Below are positions 26,957 to 61,101 of a stretch of 64,000 nt of DNA, one piece after another. Within the stretch, counting starts at the first letter, position 1. Every line of letters begins with the position of its first letter. The stretch covers positions 1,956,192 through 2,020,191 of the forward strand of contig PLJL01000004.1 in assembly GCA_003140215.1 (NCBI GenBank), in the 5' to 3' direction. A program made the translations under genes and the position numbers. The notes under the pieces were generated by a model. It saw only the letters and a list, made by a program, of their open reading frames with translations. It had not been told where the DNA came from and did no database searches. The DNA is from Vulcanimicrobiota bacterium (GTDB lineage: Bacteria > Vulcanimicrobiota > Vulcanimicrobiia > Vulcanimicrobiales > Vulcanimicrobiaceae).

Positions 26957-29101
26957 ATGACCTCTCGTCCCGCTGTACGCCTCCTGGCGCTGCTCGCGCT
27001 GACCGCCCTCGGCGCGTGCTCGAAGAGCCACAAGACGGTGCCGGCGCCGAAGGTCACGCTGGCCCCCGGGTGCGCCGCGCTGGCGGCTCAGGCGGCCAAT
27101 CCGGTCCCCAGCCTCTACACGCTGCAGTCCAACCCGAGCGGGATCGCCGTGATGCGCGAAGACGCCTCGAGCACCCAATGCGTCTACTTCACCGGCGTTA
27201 CGCAAACGACCGACGTCCCGCAGACGGCGCCCCACCAGTGGGAGTACGTGTTCGCGCCGACGTCGGCAAGCCCGTACAACGTCTTCGTGGCGCAGACGCT
27301 CGACGGCGGGCACACGCTGTTCTACAACCAGGCCGGCGACTCGAGCGGCTCGATCAACGTGGCCTCGCTGCAATCGGTCCAGCGCCGCGCCGCCTCGCTG
27401 CCCGCGACGCGCGATGTCGTGACGCGCGGGATCCAGCGCTTCACCGGCGCCGGCGTCGTCTCGAACAAGGTGCTGGTCCGCTATCGCGGCGGCAGCGGAG
27501 CCCAGGCTCGCGCCCGCGCCCAGGAGATCGAGGCGGCCCAGGGCGCGACCGGCGGCTTCGACGTTCCCGCCGCGCCGGGCGGCAGCTACCAGCGCATCGT
27601 CGTCGTGCCGGCCGGATCCGACGCCGCGAGCTTCGCCGCCCAGTTGCGTTCGCAGTCCGATGTCGTCGACGTCTTCCCCGTCCACAAGCGCTTCGCGTTG
27701 CTGCGGGGGTCGTTCCCGGTCAGCGACCCGCACGCCAACAACGTCGACCAGTGGTATCTGTTCGCCGACGGATTCGACCATGCGTGGTCCTACAATCTGG
27801 GTGCAGCCGCCAAGATCGCGATCATCGATACCGGCGTCGACTTGAACAACGCCGACCTGTCCTCGAAGATCGACTTTTCGACCGGTTACCGAAGTGCAGC
27901 GCTCACCGCGCAAGACACCAACGGACACGGAACCAACGTCGCCGGCATCGCGGCGGCGATGACGAACAACGCCACCGGATTCGCCGGTGCCGGCTTCAAC
28001 GCCCGGCTGCTCGTCTACAACATCTTCCCCGACGCCACGGCGTCGAGCGACAAGCAGACCGCCGATACCGCCGATGAGGTTCGCGCGATCCAGGATGCCG
28101 TCGGACGCAACGCGGACGTCATCAGCCTGAGCTTGGGCTCCTCCCAAGAAGTCGGCAGCGCCAACGGCTTCGATCAAGCCGAGCACGACGCGGTCGCCGC
28201 GGCCATCGCGTCCGGCGTCGTCGTCGTCGCCGCGGCCGGCAACGACGCCGACGGCGGCGAGTCGGGCACGCCGCACACCGTCCTCGATTACCCCGCCGCC
28301 TACGACGGCGTGATCTCCGTCGGCGCGAGCGCGCTCAAGGACAACAACTCCGGAACGTTCGCCGGCTCGACCGAATACGTCGCCTCGTATTCGCAGTTCG
28401 GCCCGACCCTCGGGGTCGTCGCACCCGGCGGCGACCCCGGCGCGAACGACGTGAGCCCGCTGCACTGGATCTGGAACTACTCCACGTCGACCGCCAACCT
28501 TCCGGCCGATCAGTGCACGTACAGCCACGGCACGCTGCCGCACGTGCCCACGAACTGCACGGCGTTCTTCGCCGGCACGTCGCAGGCGACGCCGCAGGTG
28601 AGCGCCGCGGCAGCGTTGTTGATCTCGGCCGCGGGCGGACACGGGTCGCTGACACCCGCTCGCGTCGCGCAACTCCTCGACGACACCGCCGACAACATCG
28701 GCGACCCGCATCAAGGTCACGGTCGGCTCAACATCTATAAGGCGATCGCGGCGCTCTTGGGCGATACGGGCGCCTACACCGGCCCCAGCAAGCAGGCGAC
28801 CAGCCCGACGCAGACGGTCGCCTTCGCCTACACGAACTCGGGCTCGAACAAGCCAATCATCCTCAACGTCAACTATCCCAACGGCATTCCGCTCGACTCC
28901 AGCGGCGCTTTCCGCATGGGCGACGTTCCCGCGGCTACCGGCACCTACCGCGTCGGCGTGTGGTACGACGCCAACGGCAACGGCGTCATCGATGCCGGCG
29001 ACCAGTTCGGGAGCTCGGCAGCGTCGTGCAACTCCGCGCAGAAGTGCGTCATGGGAACGATCACGATGACCACCGTCGGAGCCGGTTTCAGCCTGCCCTA
29101 G
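26957..29101 (+). CDS. Subtilase (S8) family lipoprotein
   Basis: A 714-residue exported serine protease. The signal LLALTALGAC has a lipobox with Cys21, so it should be lipid-anchored. A propeptide-like region extends to about 270. The catalytic triad is Asp291 (IAIIDTGVD), His324 (NGHGTNVAGIAA) and Ser542 (GTSQATPQVSAAAALL). The usual GTSMATP is GTSQATP, with Met replaced by Gln. A C-terminal 100-residue domain has a dockerin-like or EF-hand-like loop (YDANGNGVIDAGDQFG) that may bind calcium. It lies 18 bases past cinA, and its stop overlaps the convergent oxidoreductase gene by 4 bases. Confidence 0.92.
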   Translation: MTSRPAVRLLALLALTALGACSKSHKTVPAPKVTLAPGCAALAAQAANPVPSLYTLQSNPSGIAVMREDASSTQCVYFTGVTQTTDVPQTAPHQWEYVFAPTSASPYNVFVAQTLDGGHTLFYNQAGDSSGSINVASLQSVQRRAASLPATRDVVTRGIQRFTGAGVVSNKVLVRYRGGSGAQARARAQEIEAAQGATGGFDVPAAPGGSYQRIVVVPAGSDAASFAAQLRSQSDVVDVFPVHKRFALLRGSFPVSDPHANNVDQWYLFADGFDHAWSYNLGAAAKIAIIDTGVDLNNADLSSKIDFSTGYRSAALTAQDTNGHGTNVAGIAAAMTNNATGFAGAGFNARLLVYNIFPDATASSDKQTADTADEVRAIQDAVGRNADVISLSLGSSQEVGSANGFDQAEHDAVAAAIASGVVVVAAAGNDADGGESGTPHTVLDYPAAYDGVISVGASALKDNNSGTFAGSTEYVASYSQFGPTLGVVAPGGDPGANDVSPLHWIWNYSTSTANLPADQCTYSHGTLPHVPTNCTAFFAGTSQATPQVSAAAALLISAAGGHGSLTPARVAQLLDDTADNIGDPHQGHGRLNIYKAIAALLGDTGAYTGPSKQATSPTQTVAFAYTNSGSNKPIILNVNYPNGIPLDSSGAFRMGDVPAATGTYRVGVWYDANGNGVIDAGDQFGSSAASCNSAQKCVMGTITMTTVGAGFSLP

Positions 29102-30123
29102 TAGCCGATCGCATCGAGCGAGCGCTGCACGACCAGCCCGTCGGCGAAGGTCGGAACGCCCGGCGTTCCGAGGTCGATGCGCTGCGCGAACGCGTCGAGC
29201 AACGGCAGCAGGAACGGGACGTTACCGTGAACCGCGGCGTGCTTGTGGTGCGGCGAGGCGGCGATCTCGAGCTCGTCCTGTTCGTCGTCGGCGATCGTGT
29301 ACACGCGCAGGTCGCCGAAGAAGCCGCCGTTGGCGACCGCGCTGCGCGTCTCGCCGTGGACCGCCACGGTCGTCGACTCCACCACCGTCGTCGAGTCGTT
29401 GCCGACCCGCGCGACGAGTCCGCTGCCGTAGTCCAGTAGCGCGAAGGCGCCGTCCGCGACGTCGGTTTCAAATGGCCCTGCGGCATCGGAGCGGCGCGGG
29501 TTGGCGGTGCGCAGCAAGCCCTGCGTGGTGCGCGGCGGGCGGCCGGCCAAGTGCGTGGCCAAGTCCAAGAGGTGCGGCATGACCGAACTGGCTACGCCGC
29601 CCCCGGCCGCGCGCGAGAACCACCAGCCACGCTCACGCAACGTGTTGCGTTCGAGCAACTCGCGGCTGAGGCGGGCCACCTCGAGCTCGCGCAGCGCGCC
29701 CAGGTGGCCGTTGTCGATGAGCTCTTTGATGGCGATGATCGCCGGAACGTAGCGAAACTCGAACGCCAGCGCGCAGGCGGTCCCGGCGCGCTCGCCGGCG
29801 GCGACCATCTCCTCGGCTTGAGCCAGCGTCAGCGCGAAGGGCTTTTCGCACAGCACGTGCTTGCCGGCGCGCAGCGCCGCCAGCACCGAACGGTGATGGT
29901 CGAAGGGCGGCGAGGCGACCGCGACGACGTCGAGCTCGGCGCCGGCGAGCATCGCCTCGACCGAGTCGAACGCGTGTGGGATCTTGCGCTCGCGCGCCAC
30001 GTGCGCCGCGCTCGAGGGCGAGGCGATCGCCACCACCTCGAAGCGCGGGTGCAGCGCGAACGCCGGCGCGTGCGCCGCGCCGCCGAACCCGGTCCCGACG
30101 ATCCCGACTCGTAACCTGTTCAC
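29098..30123 (-). CDS. Gfo/Idh/MocA family NAD(P)-dependent oxidoreductase
   Basis: A 341-residue two-domain dehydrogenase. The N-terminal Rossmann motif is GIVGTGFGGAAH (residues about 7-18), and the family hallmark is EKPFALTLAQAEEMV (Glu-Lys-Pro near residue 95). The C-terminal alpha/beta domain includes GGGVASSVMPHLLDLATHL. Such enzymes usually oxidise or reduce a sugar or cyclitol carbonyl, but some act on imines or other small molecules. The GTG at 30123 overlaps the aminotransferase stop (GTGA). It is the last gene of the LuxE-LuxC-aminotransferase operon and may act on its product or on the amino donor; this is inference. Confidence 0.88.
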   Translation of the reverse strand: MNRLRVGIVGTGFGGAAHAPAFALHPRFEVVAIASPSSAAHVARERKIPHAFDSVEAMLAGAELDVVAVASPPFDHHRSVLAALRAGKHVLCEKPFALTLAQAEEMVAAGERAGTACALAFEFRYVPAIIAIKELIDNGHLGALRELEVARLSRELLERNTLRERGWWFSRAAGGGVASSVMPHLLDLATHLAGRPPRTTQGLLRTANPRRSDAAGPFETDVADGAFALLDYGSGLVARVGNDSTTVVESTTVAVHGETRSAVANGGFFGDLRVYTIADDEQDELEIAASPHHKHAAVHGNVPFLLPLLDAFAQRIDLGTPGVPTFADGLVVQRSLDAIGY

Positions 30124-31421
30124 GTTGCCTCCTCCGTCTCGCGTGCCGCGTCTTCGAACAGCTCGAGCGCCCGGGCTAGTTGCTCGTCGCCGATCGTGGG
30201 CGGCGGCGCGATCGTGATCGACGTTCCGGTCGGCCCCGACTGCAGGAGGATGACGCCCTTGGCGAGCCCTCGCACGACGATGCGGTTCGCGAGCGCCGCC
30301 CCGGCGAACTCCACCGCCCACAGGAAACCGCGGCCGCGCACGTCCCGCACGATCGAGAGGCTGCGCATGCGGCGGAGCCGCTCGCCCAGCGCGGGCTCGC
30401 GTGCGCGTACGAGGCCAGGAACGTCGAGCCGCGCGATCTCGTCGAGGTTGGCGAGCGCCGCCGCACACGCGAGCGGGTTGCCGAGGAACGTCGAGGTGTG
30501 CAGGGCCTCGCCGGTGCTCGCAGGCCACGCGTCCATGACGCGCGCGGAACCCATCGTCGCCGACAGCGGGACGCCGCCGCCGAGCGCCTTCCCGAGACAC
30601 AGCAGGTCGGGAACGACAGCTTCGCGCTCGCAGGCGAACATCGTGCCCGTGCGTCCGAAGCCGGTGTAGATCTCGTCCAGAATCATCAGCACGCCGCGCG
30701 CGTAGCAGAGCTCGCGCAGCGCGTGCAGGAAGCCGTCGGGCGGAACGATCACGCCGCCCCTTCCCTGGATCGGTTCGAGCAGAACCGCGCCGGCGTCCGG
30801 ATCGCGGTCCAGCGCGTCGCGCACGTCAGCGATTGCGGAGTCGACCGCAACGTCCGCACCAGGATACGGCAGAAAGGTGGCGCGATCCGCGACCAGCGGC
30901 GCAAACGGCAGACGGAACTTCTCGATGCCGGCGACCTCGAGCGCCCCCAGCGAAAGCCCGTGATATGCTCCGTGATACGCGATCGTGCGGGGCTTGCCGG
31001 TTACGAGCAGCGCGGTCTTGAGCGCGAACTCGATCGCGTCCGCGCCCGAGGTCGAGAGGTAGGTTTTCATCAAATCGCCCGGCGCCAGCTCGGCGAGCCT
31101 CATCAGCAGCCGCGTGCGCGCTTGCGTGGGATGGACGTCGCCCATCCCGTGGATCAGCCGCTGTGCCTGCGCGGCGATTGCGTCCGCGACACGCGGGTTC
31201 GTGTGGCCGGTCGCAGCGACGCCGAACGCCGAGGTCAGGTCGAGATACCGATTGCCGTCGACGTCCGTCACGGTCGCACCCGATGCGCCGGCCCAGAATA
31301 CCGGGTAGTCTTCGCCGAGGTAGGTAACGCCGGGCGCCTCGTAGCTCGCGAGCTCCGCGGCGAGCGCGCGCGAGAACGGCCCGGGAACCGCGGTGACGAT
31401 CGACTCGAGCGTCTCGCTCAC
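30120..31421 (-). CDS. Class III PLP-dependent aminotransferase
   Basis: A 433-residue omega-type aminotransferase. Lys278 in CLGKALGGGVPL is the Schiff-base lysine and Asp249 in LDEIYTGFGRTG binds the PLP ring nitrogen. The N-terminal half has VFWAGASGATVTDVDGNRYLDL and GHTNPRV, typical of acetylornithine, GABA and diamine aminotransferases, which interconvert terminal aldehydes and primary amines. GTG 31421 overlaps the LuxC-like stop. Placed directly after an aldehyde-forming pair, it is well suited to amination of the aldehyde product; the amino donor is unknown. Confidence 0.92.
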   Translation of the reverse strand: MSETLESIVTAVPGPFSRALAAELASYEAPGVTYLGEDYPVFWAGASGATVTDVDGNRYLDLTSAFGVAATGHTNPRVADAIAAQAQRLIHGMGDVHPTQARTRLLMRLAELAPGDLMKTYLSTSGADAIEFALKTALLVTGKPRTIAYHGAYHGLSLGALEVAGIEKFRLPFAPLVADRATFLPYPGADVAVDSAIADVRDALDRDPDAGAVLLEPIQGRGGVIVPPDGFLHALRELCYARGVLMILDEIYTGFGRTGTMFACEREAVVPDLLCLGKALGGGVPLSATMGSARVMDAWPASTGEALHTSTFLGNPLACAAALANLDEIARLDVPGLVRAREPALGERLRRMRSLSIVRDVRGRGFLWAVEFAGAALANRIVVRGLAKGVILLQSGPTGTSITIAPPPTIGDEQLARALELFEDAARETEEAT

Positions 31422-32677
31422 GCGCCGTCGATCCAGCGAATGAAGTCGGCGATTCGCGGTGCGCCGCCGTGATGGCCGCCCACCGGCGGTGCCTGCAGCG
31501 CTCCGAACGACGCAACGCGCACCGCACCCAGCCGCTCGGCCAGCGCGAACGCGGCGGCATCGGCGGCAACGACGCCCAGCGCCTGGACCGGCAGCCGATG
31601 CCGGCGTGCGTAGCGCGCGATCGCGTCATCACCGTCGACCGGGATCAACGGGATCGTGCGCGGCAAGAACGGCGGCGTCTCGTCCTGGGGCGGATCGACG
31701 ACGACGGTCGCGTCGGCGGCCCGCAAGACGGCGCCGCCGCCGCTTGCCGCGCGAAACGTCGCGAGGTTGCGATACGCCGAGACCGCGGCGGCGCGGCTGG
31801 GCGAGCGGGGGCCGCCGGGAAACTCGACCGCGACCCGCTCGCAGGCCGCGGTGAGCAGCGCGGCGACCCGCGCTAGCGCGTCCCCCTGCGCTTGGACGAA
31901 CAGTGCGTGCAGCGAGAGGCAACCCTCCCCGTCGTACAGCAGCGCGTCGCGCACGATGCGCTCGGCCTGGGCGTCGTCGAGGCCGGCGGCCTCGGCCTGC
32001 GTGAGCCGGCCGACGCTGGCGCGGTGGCCGAAGGCGACGAAACGGGCGTCCGGAGCGCAGCGCGCGCGGATGGCGCGCAGCGTCTCGTCGCGGCCGAACG
32101 CTACCACCACGTCGGCACGGGCGAGCAATATGTCTTCGGCGGGATCGTGGCCGCCGCTCCAGGTGCGTGCCGCGGCGGCGCTCGCGAAGGCCGGATGCTC
32201 GTCGGCGAGCGTCGCGAAAAACGCTGCGATCAACGCGTCGCCGCGATCCTTCACCACGACGTCGCACTTCGCGCACAGCGCGAAGACCGCGGGAACCAAC
32301 GCCACCCCGATCGTCGTGTCGCTCGAGATGATGACCGCGCGATCGACGCCGCGCGCCCACGCCGCCGGCGCACCGGGCCGCGTGACGATGCCGTCGAGCG
32401 CGCCGACGCTACCCAGTTCGGATGCGATCGCGGCTGCGAGCGCGTCGCGGCTCAGTCCGGCGAACAGGCGGTCGAGCGCGTAGTCGACGACCGGTGTGGT
32501 GTATCCCAGACGAGCCTCGATCGCGGCGGTTACGCGCACGCGCGGCGCGAAGTCGGCGTTGCACCAGCGTTGCGCCGCGTCCGCGATGAAGCCCGCGATG
32601 CGCGCCGCCGGCAGCGGCCGGAGCGCTCCCGGGTGCGCAGCCGCTTCAGCCACGGCGAGCCAGCAACGTCTCGGCAT
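31418..32677 (-). CDS. LuxC-type acyl-CoA / acyl-protein reductase
   Basis: A 419-residue protein of the LuxC acyl reductase family, which reduces an activated acyl group to an aldehyde with NADPH through an acyl-cysteine. Evidence is the ALDH-like core (AVIISSDTTIGVALVPAVFA, CDVVVKDRGDALIAAFFATL) and a probable nucleophile Cys253 in LYDGEGCLSLHALFV, equivalent to the QSCSSPQ-type segment of LuxC. The sequence ends HHGGAPRIADFIRWID. ATG 32677 overlaps the LuxE gene by 32 bases; a GTG at 32653 would overlap by 8. No luciferase genes are near. With LuxE it forms a fatty-acid-reductase-like pair. Confidence 0.8.
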   Translation of the reverse strand: MPRRCWLAVAEAAAHPGALRPLPAARIAGFIADAAQRWCNADFAPRVRVTAAIEARLGYTTPVVDYALDRLFAGLSRDALAAAIASELGSVGALDGIVTRPGAPAAWARGVDRAVIISSDTTIGVALVPAVFALCAKCDVVVKDRGDALIAAFFATLADEHPAFASAAAARTWSGGHDPAEDILLARADVVVAFGRDETLRAIRARCAPDARFVAFGHRASVGRLTQAEAAGLDDAQAERIVRDALLYDGEGCLSLHALFVQAQGDALARVAALLTAACERVAVEFPGGPRSPSRAAAVSAYRNLATFRAASGGGAVLRAADATVVVDPPQDETPPFLPRTIPLIPVDGDDAIARYARRHRLPVQALGVVAADAAAFALAERLGAVRVASFGALQAPPVGGHHGGAPRIADFIRWIDGA

Positions 32678-33743
32678 CGAGCGAGCACCCGCGCAGCTCC
32701 GCGCCCTGCTCGCGACCCAGCAGCACCAGTCCGGCGTGCTCCGAGCCCGTCGAAGGGCCGACGAGCGCGCCGACGTCTTCGGTGTCGATCGCGATCACCG
32801 AACCCCGGTTTGCGAGATCGATGTGGCGAATCGCGCCGACGACGCCGTCGGGGAGCGGCCGCCCCTCGCCGTCGACGACGACGGCGCGCAGCCACGGCGG
32901 TGCGACCTTCACCCGCGGTTCGATGCGGCCGCGCGACGCGGAGTCGTCGTAGTACTGCGACGACAGCTCGGTCATCCCGTACTCGGCGACGATCGCCGAG
33001 GCCGGGATGCCCAGCCGCGCCGCCGCCTCCCCGTAGAGCGCGGAACGTTCGACGGTGCGCGTGCGGCCCTTGAAGCCGCCGGTCTCCATGACGCGCGAGC
33101 CGGGCGCAAGCGCGAGGTCGCGAGCGCGCTCGCGCAACGCGTCCAGGAGCGCCACGAGCGCGAACGCCGTGGTCGCGATGCAGACCGCGGCACCGTCGTC
33201 GCTTGCACGCGCGACGTCCCGCACGAAGCGCTCGACGTCGAGCTCGTCGCCCTGGAGGTACCAGCCGCAGTGCTCGTCGCCACGCTCGCGCGCGACCGTC
33301 GCCATCATGAACCCCAGCGAGCTGTGCGGGTGGTCGCGTGGGTCGGCAACGAGGTTGAGGTAGCGCAGCCGCGCGCCGTCGGCGAGCATCATGCGGTCGA
33401 ACGAGGCCAGCAGCGCGGCTTCGTACAGCCGTGTGGTCGGCAGCTCGTGACGCCCGCTGCGGTCGCGCGTGGTGCCGCTCGTCTCGAACCAGGCGACCGT
33501 TTCGTGGGGCGGAAACGTCGCCAGCCGGGCTACCTTGAACGCAGCGGCGGGGACCGCCGGGATGTCCTCGACCCGCGCGGGTGCGTCCGCGCCCCGGGCG
33601 CGCACGAACGCGGCGTAGGGTGCGTTGTGCGCGACTTGGTACACGAACAGGTCGAGCGCCAGCGCCCGAAACGCATCCGCGTCAAGCGCATACGTCTCGA
33701 TGGCGGTGAGGATCCGCGCATCGAGCGCCGCCGCGTCGGGCAT
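32646..33743 (-). CDS. LuxE-type acyl-protein synthetase
   Basis: A 365-residue member of the LuxE/PaaK adenylate-forming group. It shows the ATP-binding loop FETSGTTRDRSGRH, the motif METGGFKGRTRTVER and EYGMTELSSQYYD. Cys353 in LRGCSLDAETLL near the C terminus matches the acyl-accepting Cys that LuxE carries on its flexible tail. The reaction by family: carboxylate plus ATP to acyl-AMP, then transfer to Cys and on to LuxC. Residues near 330 (VGPSTGSEHAG) include the short repeat core GTCGAAGG. The ATG lies 10 bases after the secreted-protein stop, so they are likely one transcript. Confidence 0.85.
   Translation of the reverse strand: MPDAAALDARILTAIETYALDADAFRALALDLFVYQVAHNAPYAAFVRARGADAPARVEDIPAVPAAAFKVARLATFPPHETVAWFETSGTTRDRSGRHELPTTRLYEAALLASFDRMMLADGARLRYLNLVADPRDHPHSSLGFMMATVARERGDEHCGWYLQGDELDVERFVRDVARASDDGAAVCIATTAFALVALLDALRERARDLALAPGSRVMETGGFKGRTRTVERSALYGEAAARLGIPASAIVAEYGMTELSSQYYDDSASRGRIEPRVKVAPPWLRAVVVDGEGRPLPDGVVGAIRHIDLANRGSVIAIDTEDVGALVGPSTGSEHAGLVLLGREQGAELRGCSLDAETLLARRG
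32743..32757. repeat. Dispersed repeat core, copy C (inside the luxE-like gene)
   Basis: GAGCCCGTCGAAGGG, identical to the right-hand core of copy A. Only about 15 bases match, so taken alone it could be chance, but it is read in the same frame (PSTGS) as in copy A. Confidence 0.45.
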
Positions 33744-33752
33744 CAGCTCACG

Positions 33753-34307
33753 TCAGACGGAGAGCCCTGCCCGCTTGCGGTGCGAAGCCGTGAACGGCGT
33801 CCCTTTGTCCTTGGGGTCGGCCGTGAGCAGCAGGCCGACCATGTCCGAGAAGTTCTCGGCGTAGCCGGCGAAGGTCCAAGCATTGTCCTTGGCATCCTTC
33901 GCGGTGAGCTTGAACAGCCGTCCGTCGAAGGTTCCGGTGAAGCTGAGCTTCTCGTTGCCGCGCAACCAGGTCCCATTCAACGCGTCGCCCTTCTGGGTGA
34001 CGACGAGGTGCGAGTAGACCGTTCTGCCGCTGCCGGTGAGGGGCTGGAGCTGCACTTCCCAGATGCCGTCCATGGTGGAGAACTGCAGCGGTTCGGGCGA
34101 CTCCGACGCGCTCGGCGCGGGCTCGGGGGAGCTGCCGCGGCGGCCGCGGCGGCCGGCCGGGGCAGGGCTGGCGCTGGGGGCGGGCACCGCAGACGGCGCC
34201 GGCGTGCCGGCCTGATCGGAAGGACCGGATTGTCCGGACGCGGCGACGGCGGTACCGCTGAGCGCCAGGGCGGCGAGCGCTGCGAGCGCGAGCTGACGAA
34301 GGTTCAC
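33753..34307 (-). CDS. Secreted Pro/Ala/Ser-linker protein with a beta-rich C-terminal domain
   Basis: A 184-residue exported protein. GTG 34307 is supported by AGAGG six bases upstream and starts a clean signal peptide (LRQLALAALAALALSGTAVA). Residues about 25-75 are a low-complexity Pro-Ala-Ser linker interrupted by GRRGRRG. The last 100 residues read as successive beta strands (DGIWEVQLQPL, SHLVVTQKGDALNGTW, LSFTGTFDGRLFKLTA, NAWTFAGYAENF), suggesting a small beta-barrel, perhaps lipocalin-like; this is a guess from strand pattern. It is the first gene of the LuxE-LuxC operon, 9 bases upstream, which links an extracytoplasmic factor to that pathway. Confidence 0.75.
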   Translation of the reverse strand: MNLRQLALAALAALALSGTAVAASGQSGPSDQAGTPAPSAVPAPSASPAPAGRRGRRGSSPEPAPSASESPEPLQFSTMDGIWEVQLQPLTGSGRTVYSHLVVTQKGDALNGTWLRGNEKLSFTGTFDGRLFKLTAKDAKDNAWTFAGYAENFSDMVGLLLTADPKDKGTPFTASHRKRAGLSV

Positions 34308-34509
34308 GGGACCTCTTCTTGGCTGGATGGGAACGGCTCTGTGTTCGCAAACGCCGTCGCCGTTCATCCCGGCAGCGGCCTCGCCCGGAAAACGAAATAC
34401 GGCCCGCGGCGGTGCCGCACCCGGCCGGCTCGCATCCCCTGGCCAGCGAGGCTACGGCCGTTCGGCCGCTGGGGAAGCCTCTTGCGGCCGGTGCTAAAAT
34501 AGAAAGGCT

Positions 34510-58037: not shown

Positions 58038-58126
58038 GGAGAGGTGGCCGAGCGGCTGAAGGCGGCGGTTTGCTAAACCGTTATACGAGTTACATCGTAT
58101 CGAGGGTTCGAATCCCTCCCTCTCCG
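58038..58126 (+). tRNA. tRNA-Ser(GCT)
   Basis: An 89-base class II tRNA: acceptor GGAGAGG with CCTCTCC, D-arm GGCCGAGCGGCTGAAGGC, anticodon loop TTGCTAA with anticodon GCT, long variable arm, and T-arm GAGGGTTCGAATCCCTC. Reads AGC/AGU. No CCA is encoded. Confidence 0.96.
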
Positions 58127-58203
58127 ATGTTGCCGACGTGCGGCAGGGATCGAATCCCAAGCGCCGTATCCCACCCCGTCGCCGCAGCTCGCGTGCGACG
58201 CGC

Positions 58204-58277
58204 GCGGTCGTAGCTCAATTGGATAGAGCAACAGGCTACGAACTTGTAGGTTGGGGGTTCGAGTCCCTCCGACCGCG
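58204..58277 (+). tRNA. tRNA-Arg(ACG)
   Basis: 74 bases: acceptor GCGGTCG with CGACCGC, D-arm TAGCTCAATTGGATAGAGC, anticodon loop CTACGAA with anticodon ACG, T-arm GGGGGTTCGAGTCCCTC. The A34 is the known substrate of TadA, which is encoded about 2.3 kb downstream. No CCA encoded. Confidence 0.96.
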
Positions 58278-58282
58278 TTTAC

Positions 58283-58318
58283 GAGAAAGAGCCCGCACGA
58301 CGTGCAGGCTCTTTCTCT
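58283..58318. terminator. Long hairpin terminator, probably bidirectional
   Basis: GAGAAAGAGCC (58283-58293) pairs with GGCTCTTTCTC (58307-58317), and inside it GCACG pairs with CGTGC around a one-base loop. It is followed by a T/C-rich tail on the forward strand, and the reverse strand is also A/T-rich before it. It separates the tRNA pair from the convergent protease-like gene, which ends at 58320. Confidence 0.75.
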
Positions 58319-58319
58319 C

Positions 58320-59852
58320 TCAGTAGTGTTTGCGCGGGATCATCACCATGATGCCGTCGGGGTAGGCGAAGACGAAATTGAATGCCCGCATGAAGTCAAG
58401 GCCGACGAGAATCTCGTTGTTCGCGAACGAGGGCGAATCGCACGCGGCGGGCAGCGGATAGCGGATCGGGCCGAGCGCGAGTGATTGCAACTTCCCACAG
58501 TTTTCGATTTCCACGCCGCCGATTCCGCCGCTGATCGCATAGTACTTCGTCATGAAAGCAATGTGGTTCCGCCGCACGAAATCGGTTGAAACAAGCACGT
58601 CGGCGGGGTTGCCGCTGTCGAGCGTCGCGATGACGTCGACCTTGTCGTCGACGCGCATCGGCGTCCGAATGTGGTGGTCCGACAGGTCGATGTGAACGAC
58701 CATGCCGGCCTGCTCGTCGGGCGCGACCTTTGCCGGGTCCATGAGGCGCAGGGTGTTCGCATCGAGGCTCAGGTCGGCGACCGTCGCCGCCAACAGGTCG
58801 AATCCGATGATCCCGACGACGCCCTCGCGCGACCAGCCCTGCTCGTCCAGCCCGCTCGAGACGATGACGTCGTGCAGCGTCGACCCGCCGACCGCAAGCG
58901 TGTCGACGCGGAACAGGTTCGCGCGAACGGTCGCGGGACCGATGCCGCCGATCGGGACATCGCCGAACCGCTTCGCCCCTGTGCTGCGAGCAAACGAGTC
59001 GAGCATCGCGGTACCGTCAGCGCCCGTGTCAAAGATGAACTTGCCTTTGACCCCGTTTACGACGACGTTGAGGTAGATGCGTGGCGCCGGCTGGTCGACA
59101 TACTCGATGCGCGCGGGTTCGTCGCCGAAGGTCCAGATCGCCGTTTGTTTGGGCGGGCGAAGTTGGTCCGGCTCGACCGGCGCGTTTGGGACAATCGCAG
59201 TGTACGCGTAGCGGGTCTTTGCATTGCCATGGTGCCACGACGACAAGAACTGCTTGCCGTCGACCGCGGTGTAGCCCAGACCGTCGAACGAGCGCTCGTA
59301 TTTTCCGTCGGGGTCCACGACTGCGCGACGGTATGCGCCCGTCGCCGGGTCGATGTACACGTCGAACGGGAACCCGACCTTCGACGTGAGGCGCACGATG
59401 GCGCAGTCGATGCCGTCGATCTTCTGCGCCCCTCGATACGAGCCCGCGAAGGCGTCGGTCGCCGTCGTCTCGGCGAACAGGGCGTCGGTGTCGAAGAGCG
59501 CGCGCACGACCTCCCCGATGGGACGTACCGTGAACCCATTCTCATTCGACGTCCACGAGACGCTCCCGGTGAATCCGTCGTCGAAATGCAACCCCTCGGC
59601 GCTCACAAACGTGTCCCGATGGGCCAGACCGTAGCGGAGTGATGTCAGCGTCCCGCGGGACTTTCCGTCACGGGTCGCTTCGCCCGTCTCGCGCAACGTC
59701 TTGACCACGCCGTCGCCGGCGTGCCACTTCACGTAGGCGGCATGCTTCGCGAGCAGCGCCGCCGCGTCGTCACTCGACGCGGATCGCGCGGTATCGGAGC
59801 CGAGGACGAATGCGAACGCCGCGACCGCCCCGGCAAGAAACACCCGGTGCAT
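58320..59852 (-). CDS. Exported retropepsin-like aspartyl protease family protein with two D-(T/S)-G motifs
   Basis: A 510-residue exported protein (signal VFLAGAVAAFAFVLGSDTARSA). Residues about 30-250 form a beta-rich domain resembling outer-membrane lipoprotein-sorting LolA-like folds. The C-terminal half contains retropepsin-like motifs: FIFDTGADGT (Asp275) with the later GIIGFDLL hydrophobic-hydrophobic-Gly, and ATLDSGNPADVLVS (Asp412) with ILVGLDFMRAF. Two catalytic-type motifs in one chain suggest a single-chain pseudo-dimer, like pepsins, rather than a homodimer. Activity is inferred. It is a single gene ending at the bidirectional terminator. Confidence 0.8.
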   Translation of the reverse strand: MHRVFLAGAVAAFAFVLGSDTARSASSDDAAALLAKHAAYVKWHAGDGVVKTLRETGEATRDGKSRGTLTSLRYGLAHRDTFVSAEGLHFDDGFTGSVSWTSNENGFTVRPIGEVVRALFDTDALFAETTATDAFAGSYRGAQKIDGIDCAIVRLTSKVGFPFDVYIDPATGAYRRAVVDPDGKYERSFDGLGYTAVDGKQFLSSWHHGNAKTRYAYTAIVPNAPVEPDQLRPPKQTAIWTFGDEPARIEYVDQPAPRIYLNVVVNGVKGKFIFDTGADGTAMLDSFARSTGAKRFGDVPIGGIGPATVRANLFRVDTLAVGGSTLHDVIVSSGLDEQGWSREGVVGIIGFDLLAATVADLSLDANTLRLMDPAKVAPDEQAGMVVHIDLSDHHIRTPMRVDDKVDVIATLDSGNPADVLVSTDFVRRNHIAFMTKYYAISGGIGGVEIENCGKLQSLALGPIRYPLPAACDSPSFANNEILVGLDFMRAFNFVFAYPDGIMVMIPRKHY

Positions 59853-60006
59853 CGTGGCGGCTTCTCGGCCGCAGTAGGGTGGCCTGCCGCCCGATTGCAG
59901 CCGTGGAGGGTCTTGACGGGTTCTGGATAATCGACGTGCGGTTTCCCTCGACGACTCAGGTCGGCCTCAGCACCGAGCCGATAGAATCGTCGTAGGATGC
60001 AGCAGC

Positions 60007-60078
60007 GGCTCGGTAGCTCAGCGGTAGAGCGGGGGACTCATAAGCCCTAGGTCGTAGGTTCAAATCCTACCCGAGTCA
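60007..60078 (+). tRNA. tRNA with CAT anticodon (Met or Ile2)
   Basis: 72 bases: acceptor GGCTCGG with CCGAGTC (one G-T pair), D-arm TAGCTCAGCGGTAGAGC, anticodon loop CTCATAA with anticodon CAT, T-arm GTAGGTTCAAATCCTAC. The last pair of the anticodon stem is an A-G mismatch. No G-C triplet typical of initiator tRNA is seen, so it is elongator Met or lysidine-type Ile. Confidence 0.92.
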
Positions 60079-60094
60079 GAGTTTTCTCGAGGTA

Positions 60095-60352
60095 ATGACA
60101 ATGTCGACGATCCCCTGCGATTTTTGTCCGCATCCGGTCGACCGGGCGCAGATGGAAGAAATCGAGATCAGCCACTACGTGCCGGACAGCTCGGGGGACG
60201 ATTTGGCGTACGCGCGGACGTATTTCTTCGGCCACCCGGATTGCGTCCGCAAGTTCTATCGCGGGCTCGTCGAGCACAAGCTCGACCTCTTCAAGCACAT
60301 GCCGACCACGGGCCCCACAGGCCCCACCCCCACCGAAAACCCCGGCCGCTAA
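60095..60352 (+). CDS. Small Cys-containing protein, unknown
   Basis: An 85-residue protein starting 17 bases after the tRNA, at ATG 60095 or 60101. The N-terminal CDFCPHPV has a CxxC, with a further Cys in HPDCVRKFYRG, so a small metal site is possible. The last 18 residues are a Thr/Pro/Gly tail. No family recognised. Coding is supported by consistent GC-rich third positions and the zinc-like motif. Confidence 0.6.
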   Translation: MTMSTIPCDFCPHPVDRAQMEEIEISHYVPDSSGDDLAYARTYFFGHPDCVRKFYRGLVEHKLDLFKHMPTTGPTGPTPTENPGR

Positions 60353-60459
60353 CCCCGCCAAGGCCGGAGACTGTCTCGCCATTCGCCACCAGGAAGGGCT
60401 GACAGAGCGCAAGCGGACGTCATGCCGATGCCTGCAACGAGCGAAGCGAGATGGAGGCT

Positions 60460-60533
60460 GCTCCCGTAGCTCAATTGGATAGAGTGTCGCCCTCCGAAGG
60501 CGAAGGTTGCCCGTTCGAGCCGGGCCGGGAGCA
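60460..60533 (+). tRNA. tRNA-Arg(CCG)
   Basis: 74 bases: acceptor GCTCCCG with CGGGAGC, D-arm TAGCTCAATTGGATAGAGT, anticodon loop CTCCGAA with anticodon CCG, T-arm GCCCGTTCGAGCCGGGC. No CCA encoded. It is directly upstream of tadA. Confidence 0.95.
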
Positions 60534-60585
60534 CATTTTCCCTGCCGCCGAGGAGCCTGCGCCCGAGCCCGAGGCCCAGCTACGG

Positions 60586-61032
60586 ATGCGGCGGGCGATC
60601 GAGCTTGCCGGCCAGGCGGCCGCTGCGGGCGACGTCCCGATCGGGGCCGTGCTGGTGGTCGACGGTCGCGTCTTCGAAGCGTTCAATCAGAAGGAGCAGC
60701 GCCCGGACCCCACCGCGCATGCCGAGCTGCTCGTGATTCGCGCGGCCGCCGCGGCGCTGGGGCGTTGGCGCGTCGGGGGGGTCCTGTACGTCACCAAGGA
60801 GCCTTGCGCGATGTGCGCGGGCGCGCTTGCAGCGGCGCGCGTCGAGCGCCTCGTGTACGGCTGTCGCGACCCTAAGGGAGGGGCGGCGGGGTCGGCTATC
60901 GATATACTCGGATCGGCCGCCGTGAACCATCGCGTCGACGTGATCGACGGGGTGCTTGCGGACGAAACGGCCGCACAACTGCGCGAGTTCTTCGCGCAGA
61001 AGCGGCGCCCGGAGAGGTGGTCGAGTGGTTGA
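60586..61032 (+). CDS. tadA: tRNA(Arg) adenosine-34 deaminase
   Basis: A 148-residue zinc deaminase converting A34 to inosine in tRNA-Arg(ACG). The catalytic TAHAELLVIRAAA holds the zinc His and Glu, and PCAMCAGAL the two zinc Cys. ATG 60586 matches the usual start (MRRAIELAGQAAAAGDVPIGAV). It sits between tRNA-Arg(CCG) and tRNA-Ser(CGA), and its last 22 bases overlap the latter. Confidence 0.95.
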   Translation: MRRAIELAGQAAAAGDVPIGAVLVVDGRVFEAFNQKEQRPDPTAHAELLVIRAAAAALGRWRVGGVLYVTKEPCAMCAGALAAARVERLVYGCRDPKGGAAGSAIDILGSAAVNHRVDVIDGVLADETAAQLREFFAQKRRPERWSSG

Positions 61033-61101
61033 AGGCACCCGCCTCGAAAGCGGGCGAACGTTGATAGCGTTCCGAGAGTTCGAATCTCTCCCTCTCCGCC
61101 A
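61011..61101 (+). tRNA. tRNA-Ser(CGA)
   Basis: A class II tRNA, acceptor GGAGAGG with CCTCTCC, anticodon stem-loop CCCGC-CTCGAAA-GCGGG with anticodon CGA, long variable arm, T-arm GAGAGTTCGAATCTCTC. CCA is encoded (61099-61101), unlike the other four tRNAs here. Its first 22 bases are the end of the tadA coding region. Confidence 0.95.

Follow-up and report, generated by a model that had tools for sequence, protein, structure and literature searches.

A cluster of four overlapping genes on the minus strand of a genome segment from a Vulcanimicrobiota bacterium (assembly GCA_003140215.1, contig PLJL01000004.1, positions 1,956,192 to 2,020,191; this whole stretch of 64,000 nucleotides is referred to here as the window) encodes a LuxE-type acyl-protein synthetase, a LuxC-type acyl reductase, a class III aminotransferase and a Gfo/Idh/MocA oxidoreductase. 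It is proposed, with a probability of roughly three in four, that the first three provide a different branch of queuosine synthesis in place of QueC and QueF, with the substrate, aldehyde and product that we infer below. The tRNA modification queuosine is widespread, and the conversion of 7-carboxy-7-deazaguanine (CDG) to 7-aminomethyl-7-deazaguanine (preQ1) within its synthesis is taught as the work of QueC followed by QueF. It is established that QueE yields CDG, QueC forms the nitrile preQ0 and QueF gives preQ1 (PMC5372724; PMC6593275). The genes of the window cluster are:

32646-33743, minus strand: LuxE-type acyl-protein synthetase, the proposed CDG-activating enzyme (365 aa; Cys353 as acyl carrier; Pfam LuxE)
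31418-32677, minus strand: LuxC-type acyl reductase, the proposed source of 7-formyl-7-deazaguanine (419 aa; Cys253; Pfam LuxC)
30120-31421, minus strand: class III aminotransferase, proposed to give preQ1 (433 aa, GTG start; Lys278; Pfam Aminotran_3)
29098-30123, minus strand: Gfo/Idh/MocA oxidoreductase, co-transcribed by position (341 aa, GTG start; Pfam GFO_IDH_MocA)

An earlier note on this DNA had described four genes joined by short overlaps between 29098 and 33743, and their open reading frames (ORFs) were confirmed, all on the minus strand, with overlaps calculated from the coordinates of 32 bases (LuxE/LuxC), 4 bases (LuxC/aminotransferase) and 4 bases (aminotransferase/oxidoreductase) and a third-position GC of 0.86-0.92 across all four. 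The enzyme classes that it had assigned were upheld by Pfam scores (LuxE, 49.9 bits against a gathering cut-off of 24.9; LuxC, 130.6 against 21; Aminotran_3, 317.2 against 30.5; GFO_IDH_MocA, 99.4 against 24) and by the catalytic residues, which were found at the positions it gave: Cys353 of LuxE, invariant in an alignment of 20, Cys253 of LuxC, invariant in an alignment of 12, and Lys278 of the aminotransferase. By sequence, the sole PDB relative of the window LuxE was the LuxE of 7xc6 (phmmer, 7xc6_E, 4.5e-16). Structural comparison, named in advance as the analysis that could overturn these assignments, left them standing, as the LuxC model (mean pLDDT 88.3) was nearest to Photobacterium LuxC (7xc6_A, E 4.5e-22, TM 0.82) and the LuxE model (mean pLDDT 88.8) to the acid-adenylating ligases PaaK and ClxA, which act on aromatic acids. 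The general logic of acid to aldehyde to primary amine was likewise supported. The earlier proposals for what enters and leaves the pathway (a fatty acid, an amino-lipid, a polyamine or a sugar side chain) found no support, as both gene context and gene presence point to a conversion of CDG to preQ1.

According to this proposal, QueD and QueE, whose genes lie at other sites in the genome, would make the heteroaromatic acid CDG, the carboxylate of which would be activated by LuxE with ATP and attached to Cys353 in thioester linkage. From there the acyl group would move to Cys253 of LuxC, where reduction with NAD(P)H would give 7-formyl-7-deazaguanine, and this aldehyde would be converted by the class III aminotransferase to preQ1 for insertion into tRNA by TGT. 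The evidence that carries the proposal is the class-wide conservation and order of the genes, the presence of QueE and TGT, the missing QueF and strong QueC, the linkage to QueD and QueE in other lineages and, further, the grouping of the aminotransferases of the set in one clade and the nearness of the LuxE model to ligases of aromatic acids.

Conservation was assessed in a sample of 149 genomes of the phylum (Vulcanimicrobiota/Eremiobacterota), comprising 117 from the class of the window (families f1, f2 and f3) and 32 others. When the genomes were searched, the Pfam LuxE model failed to recover the LuxE of the window itself. LuxE and LuxC were therefore sought with protein queries and were present in 111/117 and 108/117 class genomes, respectively. 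LuxE, LuxC and the aminotransferase were consecutive in 33 of the 35 class loci laid out (f1, 18/20; f2, 3/3; f3, 12/12), with LuxE and LuxC separated by an extra gene in 2 of the 18 consecutive f1 loci; in the remaining two loci, both from genus g5, LuxE had been relocated and LuxC and the aminotransferase were still together elsewhere. Gene order, the conservation of which the earlier note had set as a test, is thus kept far beyond the source strain. The set was retained in two genomes of 1.9 Mb (G003 and G061), was about as universal in the class as QueE, and looks like core metabolism. The Gfo/Idh/MocA gene accompanied it in 17/18 contiguous f1 loci and in 2/3 f2 loci, the third of which stops at a contig edge; as it was not found in 12/12 f3 loci and its f2 counterparts were only 27-29% identical, it is probably not a core step. 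The other neighbours of the f1 loci (metY-like, CoA_binding_2, leuCD, cinA, nadE and an S8 protease) were judged to reflect synteny, given that the f3 neighbours differ.

It seems that most members of the class produce CDG and possess TGT, without recognised enzymes between the two, for QueE was found in 44/44 class genomes (106-150 bits with a five-sequence profile), QueD lay within 1.2 kb of QueE in 20/20 class loci, TGT was present in 108/117 class genomes, QueF was found in 0/117 and no strong QueC was detected. The f3 match to QueD was weak, the QueD of the window genome scored above its cut-off (95.0 against 89.25), and one class TGT reached 494.1 bits on TIGR00430 (cut-off 306.75). QueC was searched in 80 genomes, made up of 11 outgroup genomes, 44 class genomes and 25 LuxE genomes from outside. 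It scored 168-248 bits in 10/11 outgroup genomes, with one weak match, and a strong QueC was found in 0/44 class genomes, 41 of which had nothing above 43 bits; the weak class matches look like other ATP pyrophosphatases, and that of the window genome is NadE by its position. QueF was found in 8/32 of the other genomes of the phylum. For QueE, with a profile to which three of the 25 outside genomes and one outgroup genome had themselves supplied rows, 14 of the 25 scored at least 150 bits and six scored 67-96 bits. QueG was not found near TGT (18 class loci) or QueE (20 class loci) with an E. coli query, and no genome-wide QueG search was made.

Linkage of the set to CDG synthesis was seen beyond the class. 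A scan of genome contigs gave 582 LuxE relatives, of which the best 80 were used, ranked by likeness to the LuxE of clusters associated with thiamin pyrophosphate (TPP) riboswitches, described below. Of these 80, 44 were not of the TPP type (L145-L188), consisting of five class members and 39 loci from outside, which are an uneven sample. Next to LuxE-LuxC, or next to LuxE where the contig ended, an aminotransferase was found in 12/39 outside loci from several phyla, and QueE or QueD adjoined the set in 6/39 (L151, L164, L167, L168, L178 and L180), adjacencies that should be rare given the number of genes. The order was QueE-aminotransferase-LuxE-LuxC in L151, where QueE scored above its curated cut-off (303.7 against 300), and QueE-LuxE-LuxC in L168, and a divergent LuxE stood beside QueE in L178, the QueE-like protein there falling below the cut-off. 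In L164, L167 and L180, which represent a single related group of Verrucomicrobiota, a QueD above its cut-off followed immediately behind LuxC, with an MFS gene separating LuxE from LuxC in L180. The LuxE-LuxC-QueD clusters of L164 and L180 have no aminotransferase; elsewhere in the same genomes, QueE was followed, after 3 and 15 bases, by an aminotransferase that shares 49-51% identity with the L151 enzyme. With this split arrangement included, the pairs in which QueD, QueE, the aminotransferase, LuxE and LuxC are found overlap one another.

Phylogenetic trees were drawn for both LuxE and the aminotransferase. In the LuxE tree (128 rows, midpoint root, rows of fewer than 250 residues dropped), one side (99) contained luminous LuxE and the outgroup LuxE paired with LuxC-PaaK fusions, and the opposite side (99) comprised the class, the TPP type and the other phyla, although the luminous row is a long branch the exact placement of which is unsure. 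The L168 LuxE, which has QueE in front of it, was drawn beside f1 and f2 (81), f3 was separate, and the TPP type formed one group (99). The L157 LuxE was identical to that of an f3 genome, and those of L163 and L171 likewise fell in class clades. In the aminotransferase tree (88 rows, rows of fewer than 230 residues dropped), 62 of 64 class or LuxE-linked sequences formed one clade (100/100), together with one unlinked sequence from L178. This clade excluded 21 aminotransferases encoded at other sites in five genomes of the phylum. The aminotransferases of L166 and L179 came from another lineage, outside the main clade, which suggests that they may have been recruited independently to the same job.

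Several observations weigh against a role in preQ1 synthesis. The absence of QueF is not special to the class, as QueF was also not found in 24/32 outgroup genomes. A divergent QueC-like protein was present in 3/44 class genomes (80-102 bits; G097, G065 and G125) and in 5/25 outside LuxE genomes (94-123 bits, the other 20 having nothing above 31). When five of these eight proteins, one per genome, were scored on the QueC equivalog, they reached 74-92 bits against a cut-off of 150.3, and two true controls scored 199 and 180; two of the three class proteins were among those checked, and both were below the cut-off. The members from the five outside genomes belong to a QueC-like family (L284-L289; 46-52% identical to that of L284), of which the three scanned all fell below the same cut-off. 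QueE was weak in 5/25 outside genomes, and the QueE of the window genome, which scored best on QueE models, was nevertheless under their cut-offs (105 against 240). TGT was not found in nine class genomes, two of which (G049 and G061) are at least 95% complete, and a 96% complete genome (G122) had TGT, but neither LuxE nor LuxC was found in it. The family searches for QueC, QueF, TGT and LysA share a loose first look, which divergent copies may escape. A QueA gene was likewise not found at the 18 TGT and 20 QueE class loci given above for QueG, again with an E. coli query and no genome-wide search, and no preQ1 riboswitch was found at threshold in 31 scanned sources, 30 of which were LuxE loci.

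The TGT base pocket was also considered here. One source gives Cys158 to Val and Val233 to Gly as the mark of the queuine-using eukaryotic TGT; for the Zymomonas enzyme it reports a reduced affinity for preQ1 with Val in place of Cys158 and a 100-fold loss of kcat for Ser at the Ala232 place (PMC3660597). The Cys158 and Val233 places were unchanged in 14/14 aligned f1 and f2 TGTs. On the unfavourable side, these TGTs carry Ser at the Ala232 place, as do both outgroup TGTs aligned, and the f3 TGTs (L200-L203) have Trp at the Ala232 place (4/4), Val at the Cys158 place (3/4) and Leu at the Val233 place (1/4). Judged by these residues, the f3 pocket counts mildly against a simple use of preQ1 in that family.

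The nearest annotated relatives of the window LuxE are found in clusters of a different composition. Of the 28 annotated plasmid records in which a LuxE relative was found, 27 contained one 30-38% identical to the window LuxE, and in six such loci that were fetched, LuxC and a short-chain dehydrogenase/reductase (SDR) gene followed LuxE in 6/6, with a ThiXYZ-like ABC transporter in two and a nucleobase permease in one. The binding protein of this ThiXYZ-like transporter was present in 27/36 TPP-type loci of the genome scan (among the best 80 of 582 relatives). A TPP riboswitch was located upstream of LuxE, at a distance of less than 0.1 to about 2 kb, in 5/6 plasmid loci and 6/10 further loci (11/16); the LuxE-LuxC-SDR loci with this riboswitch are L091, L092, L094, L095, L096, L111, L113, L114, L117, L121 and L144. 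As in the proposed route, an acid would be activated and reduced, and no published name for these clusters was found. As the SDR replaces the aminotransferase, the product is presumably an alcohol instead of an amine, and we infer that this branch is able to reduce a thiamin-related acid to the alcohol. The clusters look like an undescribed thiamin-salvage route, perhaps for the acid of the thiamin pyrimidine. Unlike these clusters, the class has an aminotransferase where they have an SDR, and no TPP riboswitch was found in the window or in the seven class LuxE loci scanned.

Three other explanations were weighed against the CDG-to-preQ1 reading. It is unlikely that the product in the class is some other small amine from core metabolism, such as an intermediate of thiamin, lysine, polyamine or beta-alanine metabolism, with the QueD and QueE neighbours being coincidental. 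The TPP-riboswitch clusters do indicate that this branch acts on other acids too, and LysA was not found in 4/15 class genomes tested, that of the window included. Against this, ThiC was present in 15/15 class genomes and a TPP riboswitch in 14/15, located at thiC and not at LuxE, by which thiamin salvage was ruled out as the role in the class; a lysine route, prompted by the nearby leuCD, was judged unlikely given LysA in the other 11/15; and coincidence would have to account for QueD/QueE adjacency in several lineages as well as for the QueE-aminotransferase pairs. Quite improbable is a pathway that starts from CDG but ends in a different 7-deazaguanine (destined for modified DNA, a secondary metabolite or some other tRNA base), with TGT using salvaged preQ1 or queuine. 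The QueD/QueE linkage favours CDG whatever the product, and the unusual f3 base pocket and the QueA result at the TGT and QueE loci are in its favour, but almost all class genomes have a Q-type TGT (108/117), and the f1 and f2 enzymes retain in 14/14 cases the Cys158 and Val233 places that are altered in the queuine-using eukaryotic TGT (PMC3660597).

Very improbable, finally, is the conversion of a fatty acid via a fatty aldehyde to a fatty amine for an unusual membrane lipid, in which the aminotransferase would cap the chain. Long-chain fatty acids are the established substrates of LuxE and LuxC in luminous bacteria, and only unidentified polar lipids are reported for the cultured relative Vulcanimicrobium alpinus (PMC9758169). 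However, the luminous NCBIfam equivalog models were missed by far (LuxE, 53.4 against 550 bits; LuxC, 33.7 against 750 bits), luminous LuxE was set apart in the tree subject to the unsure place of its long branch, no lipid genes were recognised at annotated loci, where most neighbours are unannotated, and the QueD/QueE linkage would be left unexplained. The luminous or fatty-amine reading was therefore set aside on the basis of the equivalog cut-offs, the tree and the gene context.

Placed beside known systems, the proposed CDG-to-preQ1 set shares with the QueC/QueF route its start at CDG, its end at preQ1, activation of the CDG carboxylate with ATP, and QueD, QueE and TGT, but where QueC forms a nitrile that QueF reduces, it would use a thioester, an aldehyde and a transamination, carried out by three unrelated enzymes. 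With the luminous LuxC-LuxE complex (7xc6) it has in common the families, the acyl-carrier Cys near the LuxE C-terminus, the LuxC catalytic Cys and the LuxC fold; it differs in its aminotransferase partner, its scores far under the equivalog cut-offs and its position on the opposite side of the tree. No LuxD gene was noticed in the ORF list around the set, nor, in agreement with the earlier note, was a luciferase noticed among the ORFs of 20000-42000, no luciferase profile having been run over the window. PigE of prodigiosin synthesis is a single fused protein of secondary metabolism with a reductase of a different family, and it likewise joins an aldehyde-forming reduction to class III transamination; the window aminotransferase scored 273.9 bits on the NCBIfam PigE model, below the cut-off of 850. 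The earlier remark that no described pathway with this exact set was known also held, as none was found among the papers listed in searches of the open-licence PubMed Central literature, and none of those listed joined LuxE or LuxC with queuosine.

Some further observations were made around these loci. A small gene without a Pfam match (33753-34313) ends 9 bases before LuxE and has the same place in L051 and L052, from the same genus; as other genera often have metY-like and CoA_binding_2 genes in between, it is probably a neighbour and not part of the set. In other families of the phylum (L047, L049, L050, L088, L089 and L090), the LuxC that accompanies LuxE carries a fused PaaK-like AMP-binding domain, and in L050 all of these share a single frame. 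An analogy with ElbD of ether-lipid synthesis was considered for these fusions. Next to them a protein of about 400 aa is conserved, for which the sole example scanned (L088) gave no Pfam match. In L088 this locus and a QueE gene are arranged head to head, in a genome that nevertheless carries a strong QueC. The plus strand of the window also contains a stretch of about 3 kb (58038-61101) with five tRNA genes (Ser-GCT, Arg-ACG, Met-CAT, Arg-CCG and Ser-CGA).

Taken more broadly, we consider it fairly likely that a nitrile-free route to preQ1 is standard in the class and is also used in Myxococcota, Verrucomicrobiota, Gemmatimonadota, Omnitrophota and further groups, with the sister pair of the TPP type reducing a thiamin-related acid. 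If this is true, genomes that seemingly stop at CDG would in fact be complete, and pathway predictions would be corrected for the many that seem to end there. Two known steps would be bypassed at once by three unrelated enzymes, the LuxE-LuxC branch would serve generally to reduce heteroaromatic carboxylates of vitamins and bases, and the LuxE and LuxC families would gain a role beyond light and lipids.

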